Positions 276-63,860 of a DNA stretch of 64,000 nucleotides are shown in pieces. Source of the stretch: Yoonia ponticola (GTDB lineage Bacteria; Pseudomonadota; Alphaproteobacteria; Rhodobacterales; Rhodobacteraceae). A program made the translations under genes and the position numbers. The notes under the pieces were generated by a model. That model did not search any database. It saw only the letters and a list, made by a program, of their open reading frames with translations, and was not told the DNA's origin. Each line of letters starts with the position of its first letter. Positions within the stretch are counted from its first letter, which is position 1. The DNA is taken from the NCBI RefSeq assembly GCF_014199395.1, contig NZ_JACIJM010000005.1, positions 186,001 to 250,000 of the forward strand. Reading direction: 5' to 3'.

Positions 276-1133
276 TTAGTTGGTAACGTTATCTTCGAGG
301 GCACGCAGCGCGCGTGTTGCTTCCTCAAAGTGTTGCGGATGGGTGTCGATCGCTTCGCGCAACAGGCCTTTGCCGATCGTGATGTCGTTTTGCTTGATCG
401 CGGTCAGGGCCATCGTATGCAGCAATTGCGCCCGCTCGGTCTGGTTCATCGGGATAACCGGCAGATCGTAGTTGCGCTGTGCGCCGCGGGCCAAAACGAT
501 GTTGTTTTTCGCGGTGAACATCTGTGGATCGTGACGCAGGGCATCGGTGAACATACGCTCGGCATCACGGTAAGCGCCGCGTGTGAGTTTTGAGTAACCC
601 CAGTTGTTGTAGACGCCAGCGGGTGTCGTCGTCAGGCCAACGGCAATCTGATAAAAGCTGTCCGCTTTTTCCCATTGTTCGTTGCTGTCTGCGATGATCG
701 CTTCGAGGCGGTAGCGTTTGAAGGTCTCGTGGGTCGGCGGGATCGCGTTCAACGTTGCGGCTGCTTTGTCCCACTGGTTTGTGCGGATGTAGGCATCAGC
801 CAGTTCAACGCGGTCATCGTTATTTGCTTCGGCATGGCTGGTGACGGCCTGCCATGCGGTAACGGCTTCGGTGTTGCGTTTTGCACGGATCAAGGACTGC
901 GACAATCCACGCAGCAAATCGATGCGGCCGGGATCATTGTCATTCGCGCGGCTGAAATAGCTGACGGCTTCGTCCGGATCACTGACCGTCAGAAAAACGT
1001 CATTCAGGTTGGTCTCGTCAACCACGTTCAGGTCTTGCAAGGCGCGCTGCACTTCAGCGTCACCGGACCGTTGACATGCAGACAAGGCCACAACTGCGGC
1101 GATGCACATCGGAAAAAGAATAGGGTGGCGCAT
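276..1133 (-). CDS. Tetratricopeptide repeat lipoprotein of the tad locus
   Basis: This is a 285-residue protein with a lipoprotein signal peptide; the lipobox LSAC puts the lipidated Cys near residue 20. The rest is helical TPR-like repeats, for example the YNNWGYSKLTRGAYRDAERM stretch in the second half. AAAGGA lies 10 bases before the ATG. Together with the next gene upstream it gives this locus two TPR lipoproteins, as in many alphaproteobacterial tad loci, where TadD-type lipoproteins help assemble or localise the secretin. It sits between the tadD-like gene and cpaA in one leftward transcript. The exact partner is an inference. Confidence 0.85.
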   Translation of the reverse strand: MRHPILFPMCIAAVVALSACQRSGDAEVQRALQDLNVVDETNLNDVFLTVSDPDEAVSYFSRANDNDPGRIDLLRGLSQSLIRAKRNTEAVTAWQAVTSHAEANNDDRVELADAYIRTNQWDKAAATLNAIPPTHETFKRYRLEAIIADSNEQWEKADSFYQIAVGLTTTPAGVYNNWGYSKLTRGAYRDAERMFTDALRHDPQMFTAKNNIVLARGAQRNYDLPVIPMNQTERAQLLHTMALTAIKQNDITIGKGLLREAIDTHPQHFEEATRALRALEDNVTN

Positions 1134-1162
1134 GTTTTTGCGTCCTTTTTACTGCTCTTACC

Positions 1163-1726
1163 TCAAAGTGCTGACGTCAAGGCAAAGTCCCCTGTTCCTC
1201 GTCGCACCAGTTCGAATTCTTGGTTTTCTTGAGATTCAGCATAGAAAGGGTCATTTAATTTAGCGAGCGCCGCGCGCAGGTTCTCGCGAATTTGGTCGGA
1301 ATTTCCGTTATCCGTGGCAAATGCGCGACGGAATGCCTCGCTAGCCTCGCCTGTTTTGCCTTGTTCCATTAAGATCACGCCCAGATTATTCCATGCAGGC
1401 GCGAATTCTGGCGCCTCGATTGTGGCACGGCGCAACCAGCGTTCGGCTTGGCCTAGGCGCCCTAAACGCAGGTTCGCGGACCCCAGTGCTGACAATGTGT
1501 CGGGGTTCAAACCTTGTTGCGATGCAGCGCGGGTGTAGGCCTTGAGGGCGAGTTCGAACTGTCCTGCCTGCATCAGGCGGTGCCCGACGATTAGGCCATC
1601 GATGTCGGACTCGCCCGCGATCCCTGGTGCAAATGGGTCATCTTGAGAACGATCAAAGCCGCCTGATGAACAAGCGGCTAAGATGTAGAGGGCCATTAAG
1701 ATAAACGGGGCCCGAATGTAGGTCAT
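1163..1726 (-). CDS. tadD: TadD-like TPR pilus assembly lipoprotein
   Basis: The protein has 187 residues, a signal peptide ending in the lipobox LAAC near residue 19, and three to four TPR units between about residues 45 and 150 (AWNNLGVILMEQGKTGEASE is a textbook TPR helix pair). TadD lipoproteins are outer-membrane assembly factors of the Flp pilus. It lies 15 bases after tadC, in the usual tadC-tadD order. The C-terminal 30 residues fall outside the repeats and look unstructured. Confidence 0.85.
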   Translation of the reverse strand: MTYIRAPFILMALYILAACSSGGFDRSQDDPFAPGIAGESDIDGLIVGHRLMQAGQFELALKAYTRAASQQGLNPDTLSALGSANLRLGRLGQAERWLRRATIEAPEFAPAWNNLGVILMEQGKTGEASEAFRRAFATDNGNSDQIRENLRAALAKLNDPFYAESQENQEFELVRRGTGDFALTSAL

Positions 1727-1741
1727 ATGTGACTGCCTTGC

Positions 1742-2719
1742 TTAGCCACCCCCCAAGTTTTGGGAAATGCCGTAAAGTGATGGTCCGATCAAAATGAGCA
1801 GAAGTGGCGGGACAGTCAACATCATCGTCGCCAAAGTCATCTTTGTGGGTAATTTGTTTGCGGCCTCTTCGGCACGCATCACCCGTTTGTCCCGCATTTC
1901 TGACGCATAAACCCGTAACGCGTCGGAAATCGATGTACCAAACTGCTGTGATTGCACCAAGACGGTCACAAAGCTGGTGATGTCTTGAACGCCACAACGT
2001 TCCGCCATGTCTTTGAGAACCGCACCTTTGTCTTTACCGGCTTTCATTTCGTTGCTGACGAGTTCGAATTCGCCAGCGAGTTCGGGGAAGCCTGATTTCA
2101 ATTCACGCGAAACACGAATGATCGACTGGTCGAGAGACTGACCAGCCTCCACGCAAACGAGCATCATATCAAGGCTGTCAGGAAAGCCATGTGTGATTGC
2201 CTCGTTTCGCATCGCTTGGCGGCGCGTGACCCAGTATTTAGGCAGCATATAAAATGCACCACCCGGTATCAGAACCCAGATGAGTAGATCCTGCGTCGTG
2301 ACATCTTGACCACTGGTATTCATCATGGCGTAGATCACACCAATGATCAGGCCAATCACACCCAATGCGAACTGCGCAAAGTGATACATGCGTACAGCGT
2401 TTTTGCCTTGATAGCCCGCTTGCATTAATTTTAGTTTAACAGCACTGAATTCTTCAGCATCCTGTGGTTCGAGGAAGTTTGCGTATTTCTCTAGTTTATC
2501 ACGCCCGCTTGCGGCTCGAAGTTTCTCGGGTTTGCCGGGCAGTTTCTCCGTCGTGCGCGTCGAAGCCTTCAGCCGATCTAACGGATCATCCCGCTTTTTC
2601 AGCAGAACCGGCAGTGTGATCAGGATCATCGTGAACCCAAGTCCACCGACCAACATCAGCGGCCCAAATGGCCCTAACATGCTTTCGAGCATCAGTTTCG
2701 CGTTATCGATGAATTCCAT
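1742..2719 (-). CDS. tadC: Tad pilus inner-membrane platform protein TadC
   Basis: A 325-residue type II secretion system F-domain protein. There is one N-terminal membrane segment (about residues 17-35), two central ones (about 115-160), the cytoplasmic T2SSF domain with the MMLVCVEAGQSLDQSI motif, and a C-terminal segment. TadC pairs with TadB to form the inner-membrane platform on which the CpaF ATPase acts. Length and order (cpaF-tadB-tadC) are standard. The gene begins 8 bases after the tadB stop, so translation is probably coupled. Confidence 0.92.
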   Translation of the reverse strand: MEFIDNAKLMLESMLGPFGPLMLVGGLGFTMILITLPVLLKKRDDPLDRLKASTRTTEKLPGKPEKLRAASGRDKLEKYANFLEPQDAEEFSAVKLKLMQAGYQGKNAVRMYHFAQFALGVIGLIIGVIYAMMNTSGQDVTTQDLLIWVLIPGGAFYMLPKYWVTRRQAMRNEAITHGFPDSLDMMLVCVEAGQSLDQSIIRVSRELKSGFPELAGEFELVSNEMKAGKDKGAVLKDMAERCGVQDITSFVTVLVQSQQFGTSISDALRVYASEMRDKRVMRAEEAANKLPTKMTLATMMLTVPPLLLILIGPSLYGISQNLGGG

Positions 2720-2727
2720 AATTAACC

Positions 2728-3693
2728 TCAGACCTTAATATTCACGAGCGACCGCATGACAATCACGTTTGTGATCAGAAATCCGGCAACGACGAGACAA
2801 GCCGGGATGAACACTTCAGTTTCCATGACATCATCAAAGTAGTCAGGTTGGATTAAGTTGATCGCGACCAACGCCATTAGCGGGAATGCCGAGAGCAGTT
2901 TGCCCGACCATTGGGCTTCGGCTGTGATCGCCTTAACACGGCGGAATAGCCGGAAGCGCGAACGGATCACCAGCCCTAGGCCGTGCAGAATCTCGGCGAG
3001 ATTACCACCTGATTGCTGCTGAATGGTGACGGCAACGGCCAAGAAGCGCATGTCTTGCATGTCCAGACGTTCAGCCATCGCTTTGAGGGTTTCGCCCATG
3101 TCGCGACCATATGCGGCCTCGTCCGAGATCATGCCCATTTCGGTGCCCAACGGATCAGGAATTTCTTTTGCAACGATCTGAATAGCGGACGAGAACGGGT
3201 GTCCAACGCGCAAAGACCGGACCATCAGCTCAACCGCTTCGGGCAGTTGTTCTTCGATCATCGACATCCGTTTGTTCGCTTTGCGGGCAATCCACATGTA
3301 AACGCCGCCGACGCCCATACCGATAGACACAAAGGTCCGCACGAGCGGCTCAACTTCGGTCCCGAACGTCAGGCCAATAAAGGCCGCGACGCTCGCACCG
3401 GCCATCACCATGATCAACTGCATCGGTGTAAAGACGATGTTTGCTTTTTGCGCTTTGGACGCCAAAATCGAATAAAGCGGGATGCTTTGCGATTTCATGT
3501 GCTGCGTCATTTCCTTGCGCAGCTGCTCCAACACCTGTTCGCGCTGACCGCCTTTTTCAAGCAAGGCGAGACGACGGTTCACTTTGTTATCCAGTTGCAC
3601 GGATTTGCCAAAGATCAGCAAATACACACCTTGGACCAGCAACAAAACGGCGATGAAAATAACGACGTAAATAACGGGTTGTGCTGAAATCAT
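2728..3693 (-). CDS. tadB: Tad pilus inner-membrane platform protein TadB
   Basis: A 321-residue protein starting with a membrane anchor (about residues 6-26), two further membrane helices near residues 85-135, a cytoplasmic T2SSF domain containing MVRSLRVGHPFSSAIQIVAK and the conserved QQQSGGNLAEIL stretch, and two C-terminal helices. It is the partner of TadC in the pilus platform. Only 5 bases separate it from the end of cpaF. No unusual features. Confidence 0.93.
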   Translation of the reverse strand: MISAQPVIYVVIFIAVLLLVQGVYLLIFGKSVQLDNKVNRRLALLEKGGQREQVLEQLRKEMTQHMKSQSIPLYSILASKAQKANIVFTPMQLIMVMAGASVAAFIGLTFGTEVEPLVRTFVSIGMGVGGVYMWIARKANKRMSMIEEQLPEAVELMVRSLRVGHPFSSAIQIVAKEIPDPLGTEMGMISDEAAYGRDMGETLKAMAERLDMQDMRFLAVAVTIQQQSGGNLAEILHGLGLVIRSRFRLFRRVKAITAEAQWSGKLLSAFPLMALVAINLIQPDYFDDVMETEVFIPACLVVAGFLITNVIVMRSLVNIKV

Positions 3694-3698
3694 TGGAT

Positions 3699-5150
3699 TT
3701 ACTCCGCAACCATGGGTTCAAAAATAGCTGCGGGCAGGTCGTAGCCCCACAGCTTAAAGCGGTCGGAATACGCGGAACGCACACCGGTCGCGGTAAAGTG
3801 GCCGATAATTTTGTTATCGGGAGTCAGGCCGACGCGCTGGAAGCGGAACACTTCCTGCATGGAAATAACGTCGCCTTCCATGCCTGTGATTTCAGTGATG
3901 GACGTCATACGACGCGACCCGTCTTGCAGACGCGAGGCTTGCACGATCAAGTTCACCGCTGATGAAATCTGGGATCGCACCGCCTTCAAAGGCATTTCGA
4001 TACCGGCCATCGCGATCATGTTTTCCAAACGCGAAATACCATCACGCGCGTTGTTGGCGTGAATTGTGGTCATGGACCCGTCGTGGCCCGTGTTCATCGC
4101 CTGCAACATGTCGATAACTTCTTCGCCACGCGTCTCACCCACGATGATCCGGTCAGGACGCATCCGCAGTGCGTTTTTCAGACAGTCGCGCGGTGACACT
4201 TCGCCTTTGCCTTCCACGTTTGGTGGACGGGATTCCATTCGACCCACGTGGATCTGCTGGAGCTGAAGTTCCGCTGTATCCTCGATTGTCAGGATACGTT
4301 CGTTGTTGTCGATGAACGATGACAGGGCGTTCAGCGTCGTTGTTTTACCAGAGCCCGTACCGCCGGAGACGATGATATTCAGGCGGGTCGCAACGGCGGC
4401 TTGCAAATAAGCGGCCATTTCTTCGGTAAAGGCACCAAAGCGGACCAGATCGTCGATCCCCAGCTTATCCTTTTTAAACTTACGAATGGACACCAGTGAT
4501 CCATCCACCGCAACGGGCGGCACCATGGCGTTGAAACGTGATCCGTCTTGCAAGCGCGCATCGACGTAAGGGTTGCTTTCGTCAACACGACGACCCACGG
4601 CGGACACGATCTTGTCGATGATCCGCATCAAGTGCTTTTCATCTTTGAAGGTCACGTCCGACAATTCGAGCTTACCGTCGCGTTCCACAAAGACCTGCTG
4701 CGGACCGTTCACCAGAATATCGTTCACGGTGTCGTCTTGCAAAAGCGTTTCAAGCGGACCAAGGCCCGTTACCTCAAAGTATAATTCCTGCGACAAAGTC
4801 GTCCGCTCTTCGCGGTTCAGAACGATACCCATTTCCTCAAGCGATTCGGAGGCGATGGCGTTGATCTCAGCGCGCAAGTCCGCCTCAGAGGCGGATTCGA
4901 GTGCGGCAAGGTTCAGGTTATCAAGCAATGCCTTGTGCAACTCTAGCTTGATCTCGCTAAGACGTACCTTGCGGCGTTTCTCTTTGTCAGCGGCGGCGAC
5001 ATCGACGACTGCTTTTGTCGGCATCACGCGCATTATCGATTTCTTTGCTGCGATGTCGGAAACAGGTTCGGCAACCGCAGCTAAGTTCGACTTTGCGGTC
5101 GTTTTGGTAGTTTCACCACCAGCATTAGGTTTTTTATATTTAGAAAACAT
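3699..5150 (-). CDS. cpaF: Tad pilus assembly ATPase CpaF/TadA
   Basis: A 483-residue secretion ATPase of the VirB11/PulE superfamily that powers Flp pilus assembly at the cytoplasmic face of the TadB/TadC platform. The Walker A motif GGTGSGKTT lies near residue 266. It is followed by the Asp box ([11 protein letters not shown]), the Walker B region ([10 protein letters not shown]) and the His box ([13 protein letters not shown]). The first 75 residues are basic, low in complexity and rich in Ala, Lys and Thr, as in many CpaF proteins. The gene starts 17 bases after cpaE. Length and motif order are complete, so it should be active. Confidence 0.95.
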
Positions 5151-5167
5151 TAATTTGTTCCTTTGCC

Positions 5168-6415
5168 TTAGCCTTGAACGGCTTCAGACGCGCCTACTTC
5201 GTGGACCGATTTCGCGAGTTTCGCGATTTCCTTACGCAATGCATTTTTTGGCAGACCTGCACCCAATGGCAGACCGTGGTCCGCGTTTTGTGCGACGGGC
5301 TTGCCACCGTCGGGCAGTAAAACTTCGATGCTGATGCCAAGGCTGTCAGCCAACCGTTTGATACGGGCTTTGCCGTTCAAATCGGTGAAACCAGGCGCGC
5401 GGTTCAGCACAAAACGAATTTTGTCGAATGGCAAATCTTCGGCTTGGAGCGCGCGTTTCATCCGCAGTGTGTTCTGCGCGGACCGCATATCAAGCTCGAT
5501 CACGCCGAAATAAACATGGGCTGCATCAAGCACAGTCTGGGACCATTCCACCATCGTGGACGGCATGTCGATGACGACATAATCAAAGTGGCTCGCCGCC
5601 AAATCGATGATCCGTTGAATGTCTTCGGGGCCGACAAGATCAAGCGGGATCATGTCAAACGGCGCTGTCAGGACGTGCAGTTTGTCTTCGTATGGCGTCA
5701 GCGCATGCAAGAAAGATTCACTGTCCATGGATTCTGTGTCGCCGAGCAATTCAACGATGTTCTCGCGGCGGGGCAGGTCCAGATATGTGGATGTCGTGCC
5801 GAACTGGAAGTCAAAGTCGAGCAGGCAAACCTTTTGCGCTTCGACTTTTTCCAGCGTGGCCAATTCCCATGCGAGGTTTACCGCCATGGTCGTCGCACCG
5901 ATGCCGCCGGACATGCCGTGGACGGGCATGATGACGCCATTCTTGCCGCCGCCGCTTTTCTTGCGGGGCGCGTCGCCGTCGGTTGGGGCAACTGACATGG
6001 TTTCGGCCGGGGTAAGTACCCGTTCGATCGCACGGGCCAGTTCGTTCTCAGGAAGCGGGTAGGGGACAAATTCGTCGCCACCTTCGCGCAATAAATTGTG
6101 CAACGCGGCAGGGCTGACGTCTTCGGTAATCAGAATGACCTTGATGTTTTTGGCTTTGGCGCCTGCGATGATCTCTGTGATCAAGGCGAGCCGATCTTCG
6201 TCCTCGTGATCCATTGCAATGGTCAGGAACTTGAGCGACGCAGCATCGGGCTGTGCGAGGAATGGAATGGCGTCATCAAACGACAAATCGCCCCATTGTT
6301 CACCAAGGGCTGCTTCCATGTCCTCAATGAGCAGATCAAAAATCTGCACATCACGGCTGACTGTACAGGCGACAATCGGTTGGGGCTCGTGCTGCAAAAC
6401 TGCGCTGCTCATCAT
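5168..6415 (-). CDS. cpaE: Tad pilus localisation protein CpaE/TadZ (ParA/MinD-like)
   Basis: A 415-residue protein with an N-terminal receiver-like region (about 1-130), a Ser/Gly/Lys-rich linker, then a MinD/ParA-type ATPase fold. The P-loop reads GGIGATT near residue 170 and so lacks the usual GKT lysine; atypical P-loops are common in CpaE/TadZ proteins. CpaE/TadZ sets the polar position of the pilus machine. The start is preceded by GAGGAT. It is the first gene after a 259-base gap, so a promoter for cpaE-cpaF-tadB-tadC-tadD-TPR-cpaA probably lies between 6416 and 6674. Confidence 0.92.
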   Translation of the reverse strand: MMSSAVLQHEPQPIVACTVSRDVQIFDLLIEDMEAALGEQWGDLSFDDAIPFLAQPDAASLKFLTIAMDHEDEDRLALITEIIAGAKAKNIKVILITEDVSPAALHNLLREGGDEFVPYPLPENELARAIERVLTPAETMSVAPTDGDAPRKKSGGGKNGVIMPVHGMSGGIGATTMAVNLAWELATLEKVEAQKVCLLDFDFQFGTTSTYLDLPRRENIVELLGDTESMDSESFLHALTPYEDKLHVLTAPFDMIPLDLVGPEDIQRIIDLAASHFDYVVIDMPSTMVEWSQTVLDAAHVYFGVIELDMRSAQNTLRMKRALQAEDLPFDKIRFVLNRAPGFTDLNGKARIKRLADSLGISIEVLLPDGGKPVAQNADHGLPLGAGLPKNALRKEIAKLAKSVHEVGASEAVQG

Positions 6416-11730: not shown

Positions 11731-11753
11731 ACTTCATTTCGCCAAAACAACTC
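11731..11753 (+). repeat. Dispersed 21-bp repeat, copy 1
   Basis: The core TTCATTTCGCCAAAACAACT (+C) starts 6 bases after the stop codon of the transglycosylase gene. The same 21 bases occur at 52209-52232, 63655-63680 and 63836-63860. A 21-bp exact match four times in 64 kb cannot be chance. Confidence 0.85.
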
Positions 11754-11775
11754 TCGCCGAAGGCATAAAAGTATA

Positions 11776-11810
11776 AAGGGCCGGATCATCGCGATGATCC
11801 GGCCCTTCTT
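11776..11810. terminator. Bidirectional terminator between the transglycosylase and scoB
   Basis: AAGGGCCGGATCA (11776-11788) pairs with TGATCCGGCCCTT (11795-11807) and is followed by CTTTGTTTG. The two flanking genes converge, so it can serve both. Confidence 0.85.
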
Positions 11811-13883: not shown

Positions 13884-16541
13884 TCATTCAGCAGGTTTTG
13901 CCTTTGCAGCAGGTTTTTTAGCGGCTGGCTTTTTAGCGGCCGGTTTCTTTGCTGCGGGCTTCTTAGTCGCTGGTTTTTTAGCGGCTGCTTTCTTCTTTGG
14001 TGCTGCTTTTTTCTTGATGGTTTTGCCGGACTTCGCGGCCCGTTCATCAAGCAAATCAACAGCATGAGCTAACGTCAGATCGGCAGGTTCAATTGTGTCA
14101 GGGATAGTCGCATTGATCTTCTCCCATTTCACATAAGGCCCGTATTTACCGTCATAGATGTTAACCGGACCACCAACCTCTGGGTGTTCGCCCAACTCAC
14201 GGATTGGCGTCGCAGCCTTGCCACGTTGACCGCGAGACGCGACTTTTTCCGCCAGCAATTGCACGGCGCGGTTCATCCCGACGGTCCAAACCTCGTCGAT
14301 GCCTTCTAGGTTCGCGTTGGTGCCGCCACGGTGCGACGTGCTTTCCGCGTGCTTCAGATACGGGCCGTACCGTCCGATATTGGCCCAAACCATCACGCCA
14401 TCTTCGGGGTGCGGCCCGATCTCGCGTGGCAATTCCAACAGTTTCACTGCCTCGGCCAATGCAACCTCTTCAGGGTTCCAATCAGGCGGCACACCTTGGC
14501 GCGGCGGTTTCTTGTTTTCTTCAGTCACAGGGCCGCGCTGCACATAAGGGCCAAAGCGCCCTTTGAAAACACGGATTTCGTCGCCCGCATCATCGCCTAA
14601 CAGTTTGCCATCCGGTGGGATCGCAGAGGCCTCGGCCTCTGGGTTCGGCGGACCAAATGGACGCGTGTAACGGCATTCCGGATAGTTAGAACACCCGATA
14701 AAGGCGCCGCCGGACCGTGCGGTCCGCATCGACAAACGACCCACGCCGCAGTTTTTACAGGCACGCGGATCAGAGCCATCTTCCTCAGGCGGGAACAAAT
14801 GTGGCTCAAGCACTTCGTTAATTTTCTCAAGAACTTCGGTGATCCGCAGGTCCGCTGTTTCAGCAATCGCAGCCGAGAAATCACGCCAGAAATTCGCGAG
14901 AACTTTTTTGTAATCACCATTGCCAGCGCTGACTTCATCAAGCTGATTCTCAAGATCGGCGGTAAAATCATAGCCGATGTATTTTTTGAAATAGTTGGAC
15001 AAGAAGGCTGTAACCAACCGACCTTTATCCTGCGGAATCAGGCGGTTCTTGTCCTTTTCCACGTAGCCGCGATCCTGAATCGTCGTCACAATCGACGCAT
15101 AGGTCGATGGGCGGCCGATGCCGAGCTCTTCCATGCGTTTCACGAGCGTCGCTTCAGTGTAGCGTGGCGGCGGTTGGGTAAAGTGCTGTTCCGGCGTGAC
15201 CGTTTCTTTAATGGCTTTTTCACCTTCATGGATTTGCGGCAGACGCTTATCGTCATCGTCCACAACAGCATCGTCGCGGCCTTCTTCGTAGACGGCAATA
15301 AAGCCATCAAAAACCATGACTTGGCCGTTCGCACGCAGAACAACCTGTCCGTCGTCGCTGCCAATATCAACGGCAGTCCGCTCGAATTTGGCCGCCGCCA
15401 TCTGTGACGCAATCGTGCGTTTATAGATCAGATCGTAAAGCTTTCGTTGATCCGAATCGACGATCTTAGCGGCAGCGGCATCCACCATCAGCTCCGTGGG
15501 GCGCACACATTCGTGGGCTTCCTGCGCGTTTTTCGCTTTGTTTTTATAGATGCGCGGGCTGGCCGGCACGTACTTTTCGCCGAACTTCTCTTTGATTGCA
15601 TCGCGGGCAGCGGTCACGGCCTCGGGCGCCATGTCGATGCCGTCGGTCCGCATGTAAGTGATCAGACCGGCCTCGTACAAACGCTGTGCGACGGACATTG
15701 TTTGCTTCGCGCCCATGCCGAATTTCCGCGACGCCTCTTGCTGAAGCGTGGACGTCATGAATGGCGGCGATGGGTTGCGTGATCCGGGCTTGGCTTCGAC
15801 TGATTTGATCACCAAATCGCGCGAATTGATCGCCTGAACCGCCATTTCGGCCTGCGTTGCGTTCTCGATCGAGAACTTATCTAGCTTATCACCCGCTAAC
15901 GTCGTTAACCGCGCTTCGAATGTTTGGCCGCGTGGCGTTTGCAAGACGGCTTTCACGGACCAATATTCCTGGGCGCGGAAGATTTCGATCTCCATCTCGC
16001 GCTCGACAATGATCCGAAGCGTCACCGACTGCACACGGCCTGCGGATTTCGCGCCGGGCAATTTGCGCCATAAGACGGGGGACAGTTTAAATCCAACGAG
16101 ATAATCCAACGCACGTCGCGCCAAATAAGCGTCGACCAGCGGCACATCGACCTGACGCGGGTTTTTCATCGCTTCGGTCACGGCTGTTTTCGTGATCGCG
16201 TTGAACACGACGCGGGACACAGGCGTGTCCTTCTTGATCGCTTTTTTCGCGGTCAAAGCTTCGGTCAAATGCCACGAAATTGCTTCACCTTCGCGGTCGG
16301 GGTCGGTCGCGAGGATCAGTTCGTTGTCGTCTTTCAGGGCGTCAACAATCGCTTTGATGTGCTTTTTGCTGTCGTTCGCGATCTCCCATTTCATCGCGAA
16401 ATCGTCGTCGGGATCAACTGATCCGTCTTTCGGCGGCAGGTCTCGGACGTGACCAAAAGAGGCAAGGACTGTGTAGTCGCTGCCTAAATATTTGTTAATT
16501 GTCTTTGCCTTAGCTGGGGATTCGACGACGACGACTGGCAT
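13884..16541 (-). CDS. topA: DNA topoisomerase I
   Basis: The 885-residue type IA topoisomerase relaxes negatively supercoiled DNA. It opens with the Toprim domain (VVVESPAKAKTINKYLG, then DPDREGEA), followed by the catalytic Tyr in LITYMRTDG (about residue 295). One Cys4 zinc ribbon begins near residue 593 (CKNCG, then CSNYPEC), and two to three degenerate repeat domains follow. The tail of some 45 residues is a run of KKPAA/KKPAT units. I start at the ATG at 16541 because AGGA lies 9 bases before it and MPVVVVESP is the normal N-terminus; the 23 upstream codons are not homologous. Confidence 0.95.
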   Translation of the reverse strand: MPVVVVESPAKAKTINKYLGSDYTVLASFGHVRDLPPKDGSVDPDDDFAMKWEIANDSKKHIKAIVDALKDDNELILATDPDREGEAISWHLTEALTAKKAIKKDTPVSRVVFNAITKTAVTEAMKNPRQVDVPLVDAYLARRALDYLVGFKLSPVLWRKLPGAKSAGRVQSVTLRIIVEREMEIEIFRAQEYWSVKAVLQTPRGQTFEARLTTLAGDKLDKFSIENATQAEMAVQAINSRDLVIKSVEAKPGSRNPSPPFMTSTLQQEASRKFGMGAKQTMSVAQRLYEAGLITYMRTDGIDMAPEAVTAARDAIKEKFGEKYVPASPRIYKNKAKNAQEAHECVRPTELMVDAAAAKIVDSDQRKLYDLIYKRTIASQMAAAKFERTAVDIGSDDGQVVLRANGQVMVFDGFIAVYEEGRDDAVVDDDDKRLPQIHEGEKAIKETVTPEQHFTQPPPRYTEATLVKRMEELGIGRPSTYASIVTTIQDRGYVEKDKNRLIPQDKGRLVTAFLSNYFKKYIGYDFTADLENQLDEVSAGNGDYKKVLANFWRDFSAAIAETADLRITEVLEKINEVLEPHLFPPEEDGSDPRACKNCGVGRLSMRTARSGGAFIGCSNYPECRYTRPFGPPNPEAEASAIPPDGKLLGDDAGDEIRVFKGRFGPYVQRGPVTEENKKPPRQGVPPDWNPEEVALAEAVKLLELPREIGPHPEDGVMVWANIGRYGPYLKHAESTSHRGGTNANLEGIDEVWTVGMNRAVQLLAEKVASRGQRGKAATPIRELGEHPEVGGPVNIYDGKYGPYVKWEKINATIPDTIEPADLTLAHAVDLLDERAAKSGKTIKKKAAPKKKAAAKKPATKKPAAKKPAAKKPAAKKPAAKAKPAE

Positions 16542-52208: not shown

Positions 52209-52232
52209 GAGTTGTTTTGGCGAAATGAAATT
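52209..52232 (-). repeat. Dispersed 21-bp repeat, copy 2
   Basis: Read on the minus strand this is ATTTCATTTCGCCAAAACAA plus CTC. It begins in the stop codon of the acyl-CoA synthetase gene (52231-52233). Orientation relative to the gene is the same as for copy 1. Confidence 0.85.
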
Positions 52233-63654: not shown

Positions 63655-63680
63655 TTGAGTTGTTTTGGCGAAATGAAATT
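63655..63680 (-). repeat. Dispersed 21-bp repeat, copy 3 (left arm)
   Basis: Minus-strand reading gives the TTCATTTCGCCAAAACAACT core followed by CAA. It is the left end of the 206-bp element. Confidence 0.85.
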
Positions 63681-63835
63681 TGTCGTCTCAGCTATTCATC
63701 ACCCATTAAGGTTAATCGCCTAACATGGTTTTGCGCGGAACGCAGGAGTGTGTCGTCGCGTGCGAAGTGAAGCCCCATCGTTGCATATCGGATAGCCAAG
63801 CCGTGAGGCGCGATGGGGTGGGCACTGCCGCCCCA

Positions 63836-63860
63836 ACTTCATTTCGCCAAAACAACTCAA
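63836..63860 (+). repeat. Dispersed 21-bp repeat, copy 4 (right arm)
   Basis: Plus-strand reading gives AC + TTCATTTCGCCAAAACAACT + CAA. It is the right end of the element, 10 bp from the stop codon at 63870. Confidence 0.85.

Follow-up and report, generated by a model that had tools for sequence, protein, structure and literature searches.

A 21-nucleotide repeat at gene ends in Yoonia ponticola, a candidate recognition site with lineage-specific spelling in the Rhodobacteraceae

Certain specific DNA words recur tens of times over a bacterial chromosome with no obvious regulon, among them the Noc or SlmA sites, matS, KOPS, and Ter. In the alphaproteobacteria, the Rickettsia palindromic elements (RPE) are inserted in frame in protein genes and are much longer than the motif described here. 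The DNA uptake sequences (DUS) of the Neisseriaceae, as far as the consulted parts of the account by Frye et al. (PMC3630211) describe them, are words of 10–12 bases spelled in lineage-specific dialects, and their one-mismatch copies generally outnumber the perfect ones. The REP and REPIN elements associated with RAYT (PMC3116915, PMC6006769, PMC3733652) are extragenic in the parts of those accounts consulted, with a hairpin part and several families in a genome.

The repeat considered here was noticed in a 64-kb stretch of the Yoonia ponticola genome (the window), where the exact 21-nt word TTCATTTCGCCAAAACAACTC occurs four times and in none of 100 dinucleotide shuffles, as the initial annotation of this DNA had reported for the four copies. 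The copies and the one associated tail are as follows:

11733–11753, plus strand: copy 1, 6 nt past the TAG stop of an SLT-domain gene
11754–11764, plus strand: tail module of copy 1, TCGCCGAAGGC, a small GCC-GAA-GGC hairpin directly 3' of the copy
52209–52229, minus strand: copy 2, 1 nt past the TAA of an AMP-binding enzyme gene on the minus strand
63657–63677, minus strand: copy 3, left half of an inverted pair, 47 nt ahead of a predicted GST gene start
63838–63858, plus strand: copy 4, right half of the inverted pair

The starts first given for copies 1 and 4 (11731 and 63836) lie within two bases of these and include two extra shared bases, AC. The six bases between a stop codon and copy 1 were correctly read, as was the lack of an internal hairpin in the 21-mer (mean folding energy approximately 0). 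Copy 2 had been placed with its start inside a stop codon, from which it is in fact separated by 1 nt, and the ten bases between copy 4 and a stop were about right: a predicted minus-strand ORF of 71 codons has its stop 11 nt from the end of the copy. Copy 3 has no stop codon nearby. The two members of the inverted pair have their TTCAT ends facing inward, copy 4 begins 2 nt after a terminator-like hairpin at 63814–63835, and copy 1 is the only one of the four with a hairpin tail. A scan of the 64-kb window returned no Rfam family at gathering score. At 11776–11807, 22 nt past copy 1, a strong palindromic two-way intrinsic terminator separates the SLT-domain gene from a CoA-transferase gene convergent with it. 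Elsewhere in the window, a long ORF predicted on the minus strand has, close to its 3' end, five imperfect repeats spaced at 15 bp (13902–13994), which probably encode a lysine/alanine-rich repeat tail of the protein.

The repeat extends well beyond these four copies. The 3.73-Mb draft genome of Y. ponticola (30 contigs; G000 below) holds 75 copies at no more than three mismatches (37 exact, 17 with one, 18 with two, and 3 with three), while the reversed pattern, used as a control, gave none, and this control together with the shuffles rules out a chance origin. Aligned, the copies reveal a bipartite motif, TTCATTTYGCC-NN-AACAACTC, in which positions 12 and 13 vary freely; with this spacer left out, the core matches perfectly in 60 copies, at all but one position in 13, and at all but two in 2. 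The base preceding the motif is C in 65 of the 75 copies, and the bases upstream are C-rich. After the final CTC, 38 copies continue with A, and the other 37 continue into a GC hairpin module of one of several types (CCGCCGGAGGC, CGGGGG...GGGGGCTGGCCCCC, TCGCCGAAGGC, GCCCCGCTGGCAAGCGTCCCGC, and others). Within the 25 nt after the head, 37/37 tailed copies and 17/38 others have a perfect GC stem of 3 bp or more, and 25 and 5 of them, respectively, have one of 4 bp or more. The folding of the tails is only mildly above that of shuffles (mean z −0.76; 11 of 37 below −1), and there is a mild tendency to hairpins upstream (mean z −0.76 and −0.58, against a background of about −0.1).

A second head family, TTCTTTGACTTYTTC-NN-AAATCC, uses the same tail modules and has four occurrences in 291 kb of scanned Y. 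ponticola sequence (overlaps included). Its sites are near 1537 of L057 (plus strand), 1541 of L037, 449 of L060, and 1681 of L397 (minus-strand numbering), and those in L057 and L037 are oriented head to head with the 21-nt motif. At L071, the tail of the element is itself succeeded by three more GGGGCTGGCCCC hairpin units, arranged as a short tandem array.

By the calls of a simple ORF finder trained on own-genome DNA, 71 of the 75 copies are intergenic, and of the four inside predicted ORFs only one, in cobN, lies in a gene backed by homology. The initial annotation had suspected a preference for gene ends, and this holds: 45 of the 71 intergenic copies are within 20 nt of a stop codon, where random intergenic placement gives 12.2 (maximum 24 in 5000 draws) and random placement inside the copies' own gaps gives 31.7 ± 3.1 (maximum 43), against a background that includes the gaps of the window containing copies. 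Convergent gaps are enriched (23 copies, with 5–9 expected) and divergent gaps depleted (6 copies, with 17–24 expected). Among the 42 copies in tandem gaps, 20 run with the genes and 22 against them; fdhD-mobA and argD-argF are examples of co-directional gene pairs with a copy in the short space between them. The copies do favor gene ends, whichever way they point, and such gene-end elements form a genuine set present in many Rhodobacteraceae. Ten neighboring proteins, a small share of all neighbors, were scanned and belong to unrelated families, one of them having no Pfam match, which disfavors a regulon and argues instead for a chromosome-wide role. On the Leisingera plasmids L334 and L335, an element with a CCGCCGGAGGC tail occupies positions 1501–1532 and follows, at a distance of 16 nt, the stop codon of a gene annotated in both as a ParB N-terminal domain protein.

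Comparison with a sister species (G025) indicates how these elements are maintained. At 71 of the 75 places, the Y. ponticola copy aligns to a copy at the orthologous place, and the core differs at 17 of 1349 positions (1.3%), while the free spacer differs at 19 of 142 (13%), the 30 nt upstream at 152 of 2130 (7.1%), and the 30 nt downstream at 102 of 2130 (4.8%). Over their first 11 nt, the hairpin tails show 3 differences in 363 positions, and the same positions of tail-less copies show 23 in 418. The sister-species loci were chosen for holding the motif, which biases these figures toward low divergence, yet only 4 of the 75 copies were left without an aligned partner. Two of those four places were examined in the sister genome; one holds a 22-nt version with a 3-nt spacer, and the other a degenerated head with its hairpin kept. 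In the other direction, 1 of the 72 sister-species copies scored has no partner in Y. ponticola, which carries the second head family with a CCGCCGGAGGC tail at that place. Judged from the shared places, the copies are old, and the substitution counts show both head and hairpin to be under constraint. Neutral remnants of a mobile family are disfavored by the low core divergence of such old copies.

Farther away, the places persist and the spelling changes. In a more distant relative (G020), 18 of the 27 copies scored (out of 30, at no more than two core mismatches) lie at a Y. ponticola place on the same strand with an offset of at most 80 nt, a count made without control windows of its own and including one place that rests on a 33%-identity match; 17 of these 18 are spelled TTCATCTGGCC. 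In other genera, 19 of the 74 elements among the loci listed are at a Y. ponticola place, compared with 0 of 91 control windows 3 kb away; four near-identical loci were set aside from this count as probable records of the sister species, and two of the 19 places rest on 25% and 32% matches. Searches of the family matched one spelling pattern in 32 of 394 genomes and another in 41 of 198, with more distant spellings missed by both, and genome-specific variants include TTCATCTTTCC, TTCATCTTGGC, TTCATCTTGTC, and TTCCTCTTGCC.

Two further genomes each contain two coexisting families in which the left and right halves of the motif are linked. At positions 1, 10, and 17, the copies of G007 read ACT in 25 cases, TGA in 21, and otherwise in 2 (n = 48), and those of G030 read TGA in 35, ACT in 6, and otherwise in 3 (n = 44). 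Linkage across 21 bp argues that the motif is read or copied as one unit. Base-pair covariation between positions 1 and 17, hinted at by the two families, was dropped after inspection by eye, as genomes with T at both positions are common.

Two places were followed across genomes. The fdhD-mobA junction was matched in 40/40 genomes of the genus, and of the 30 loci read by eye, 15 have a recognizable element, 1 a decayed one, 7 have mobA abutting fdhD, 6 have another neighbor, and 1 has a spacer with no element. The 15 elements show many spellings, and 9 of them carry a CCGCCGGAGGC tail that is absent there in Y. ponticola. At cobN, the copy lies in frame, between the DPF and GF(A/K)LSIH blocks of a gene identified by the Pfam CobN family, and reads TTCATTTCGCC in Y. 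ponticola and TTCATCTGGCC in G020. This gene was matched in 39 of 40 genomes, with 30 loci fetched and 25 read by script; 11 of the 25 have a recognizable head and 20 the hairpin tail or a close variant. Several relatives keep the hairpin with a head that can no longer be recognized, and one (G012) lacks the insert. These headless hairpins, together with the degenerated head in the sister species, indicate that some places do without the 21-nt head. In G020, a codon of the cobN copy has changed from TCG to TGG (Ser to Trp), and since this change follows the genome's own spelling of the motif, the constraint here acts on the nucleic acid and not on the protein.

Fixed places, a strict lineage-specific spelling, a free spacer, balanced orientation, and unrelated neighbors together point to a site for a factor that acts genome-wide and co-evolves with its site. 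Our leading explanation, in which we have about even confidence, is that the repeat serves sequence-specific recognition and that a dedicated, putative trans-acting factor reads it, most probably as DNA. The element comprises a 21-nt head of two fixed halves around a free 2-nt spacer, followed in about half of the copies by the short GC hairpin module. A putative factor, one for each family, would read the whole 21 bp, and spelling and factor would change together. The sites might then serve a role across the chromosome, such as the marking of self DNA, chromosome upkeep, or a block to transcription at gene ends. Recognition as DNA is favored because orientation is balanced and because one copy is coding. 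Against this explanation stand the hairpin tail, which in half of the copies is as constrained as the head and could point to a role as RNA or as single-stranded DNA, and the places that do without the head. The family occupying fdhD-mobA or cobN also differs between species, and these differences, with the partnerless place of the sister species, mean that repeated switching between families is needed, which counts against this explanation.

The main functional rival, by analogy, is a DUS-like sequence for uptake or self-recognition, in which DNA bearing the motif would be preferentially taken up or recombined, so that its spelling spreads by biased replacement and marks the DNA of kin. An uptake or recombination sequence was already among the initial suggestions, and it is still the best functional analogue: the word is over-represented genome-wide (75 copies, control 0) and spelled by lineage, the same places carry different spellings, and the copies found in three genomes all lie on one large contig each (GAI101, 47/47; G314, 25/25; G259, 15/15). 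Lineage spellings, two spellings in one genome, inverted pairs, and positions at gene ends and in permissive coding sequence also match the dialects as described in the parts of Frye et al. (PMC3630211) consulted. Copy number and the scarcity of near misses fit poorly, however, since 75 copies in 3.7 Mb compare with the 943–5918 reported for Neisseriaceae genomes in the same parts of that source (PMC3630211). Copies with one core mismatch number 13 against 60 perfect ones, so that there is no large pool of near misses, and some copies are on Rhodobacterales plasmids (8 of the 9 matching plasmid records). Nineteen fixed bases are also long for an uptake motif. We consider an uptake sequence unlikely on this balance. 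Less probable again would be a REP- or MITE-like mobile family, whose head and hairpin would move as single-stranded DNA and whose copies would persist near the gene ends where they had landed. The size, the hairpin tail, the extragenic 3'-end placement, the inverted pairs, and the coexisting families would all suit such a family, as would a lean toward the C-rich strand (63 of 75 copies by local GC skew; 32/47 in GAI101, 12/15 in G259, and 23/29 in G007 C8), but this lean is absent in G314 (11–15 of 25), and by our own estimate the C-rich composition of the motif would yield much of it. The initial proposal of a REP-type element does not stand in the strict sense: no match to the Y1 transposase domain of RAYT proteins (PF01797) was found in the Y. 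ponticola genome, there is little decay, with core divergence of 1.3% against 5–7% in the flanks, and the copies have no common tag. Searched on either strand of the head plus 25 nt, GTAG, GTGG, and CGTC were found in 1, 6, and 5 of the 37 tailed copies and in 3, 8, and 5 of the 38 others, though the tail type GCCCCGCTGGCAAGCGTCCCGC contains CGTC. Across the family, PF01797 is present in 18 of 198 genomes, 3 of which have any match to the spelling pattern searched for in those 198. Transposition also does not explain how orthologous places come to carry different genome-wide spellings. That the repeat might be the end of a mobile unit is likewise unsupported as a current process, with places nearly static between sister species, but the in-frame cobN insert, absent from the relative G012, does indicate that an element can be gained or lost.

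The least probable of the alternatives we weighed, and one we regard as improbable, is a function at the RNA level, with the motif belonging to a transcription terminator or serving 3'-end processing or stability. Stop-codon proximity, the GC stem of at least 3 bp in all 37 tailed copies, the constraint on the tails (3/363), the mild upstream hairpin tendency, and the position of copy 4 just after a terminator-like hairpin are what such a role would lead one to expect, but orientation to the transcribing gene is balanced, copies lie in short co-directional gaps, and the tails fold only mildly better than shuffles. A strict script found 0/75 copies in which the head, or its antisense, supplies a hairpin with its T tract; a looser terminator scan of the window found the hairpin just before copy 4 and none that uses copies 1–3. 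Copy 1, moreover, is followed by the separate two-way terminator described above. Neither copy 1 nor the orientation of the copies in general supports a terminator role, although the constrained tails could still suit a role as RNA or as a single strand. The lineage spelling of the 21-mer is not accounted for by folding.

A link to replication was also considered on the larger contigs of GAI101, G259, G314, and G007 C8, where no robust polarity was found, nor, in GAI101, any robust zoning between origin and terminus. Orientation relative to replication is 31–32 of 47 in GAI101, depending on the origin chosen, 12/15 in G259, with length and origin assumed, 11–15 of 25 in G314 for any origin tried, and 23/29 in G007 C8 at no more than one mismatch. 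Polarity was hinted at by the local GC skew, but these results do not agree with one another, and a motif rich in C tends to lie on the C-rich strand in any case. Successive fifths from origin to terminus in GAI101 hold 5, 8, 9, 10, and 15 copies with one of three origins, which is not compelling. Matches in 18 stretches from a viral collection have varied GC content, and 2 of the 18 have a GC-rich hairpin-like tail by eye; we see in them no sign of a phage element.

If the repeat is indeed a recognition site, then the chromosomes of Rhodobacteraceae may be marked by tens of gene-end sites, each a 21-bp word with a free central spacer, read by putative dedicated and fast-evolving DNA-binding readers, sometimes two, with word and reader changing together while the places stay fixed. 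That this is a kind of system not described before is a possibility we raise tentatively. Among the literature matches listed, no title or abstract describes the 21-nt motif; for related spellings, other than that of Y. ponticola, the only match among those listed is to the short string TTCATCTTGCC, in papers unrelated by title, and the main text of PMC3733652, figures apart, does not contain the words Rhodobacter, Ruegeria, Roseobacter, or Paracoccus. The interest lies in place and spelling evolving separately, and a word that keeps its places across genera while it is respelled over a whole genome is a natural experiment in the co-evolution of site and reader, comparable with the DUS dialects, though the family concerned is another one and largely marine. 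Specificity could be tested directly by exchanging one of the many spellings for another. A reader, if found, could represent a new system of self-DNA recognition or uptake, a new chromosome-organizing factor, or a new type of block at gene ends.

The motif resembles the dialects of DUS in Neisseriaceae, within the parts of PMC3630211 consulted, in being a short word with lineage-specific spelling, sometimes with two spellings in a genome, gene-end inverted pairs, and some coding copies, and it differs in having 75 copies and 19 fixed bases with a free spacer where DUS have 943–5918 copies and 10–12 bases. Few near-miss copies and an optional hairpin tail further set it apart from DUS. With REP and REPIN elements and their RAYT, as presented in the consulted parts of PMC3116915, PMC6006769, and PMC3733652, it shares a length in the range of 20–40 nt, a mostly extragenic position (71 of 75 copies), a hairpin part in 37 of 75 copies, where the head alone does not fold, several families in a genome, and inverted pairs. 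It departs from them in the lack of a Y1/RAYT domain match in the Y. ponticola genome, in having no common tetranucleotide tag, in single copies that are conserved and not decaying, and in places common to several genera. Like the RPE, it has an alphaproteobacterial host and, in one clear case, an in-frame insertion in a protein gene, here cobN, but its copies are nearly all intergenic, and the 21-nt head is strictly kept. It also resembles Noc or SlmA sites, matS, KOPS, and Ter, with tens of copies spread over the chromosome and no obvious regulon; unlike these, the motif is not palindromic, it is placed at gene ends, and its spelling changes between related species.
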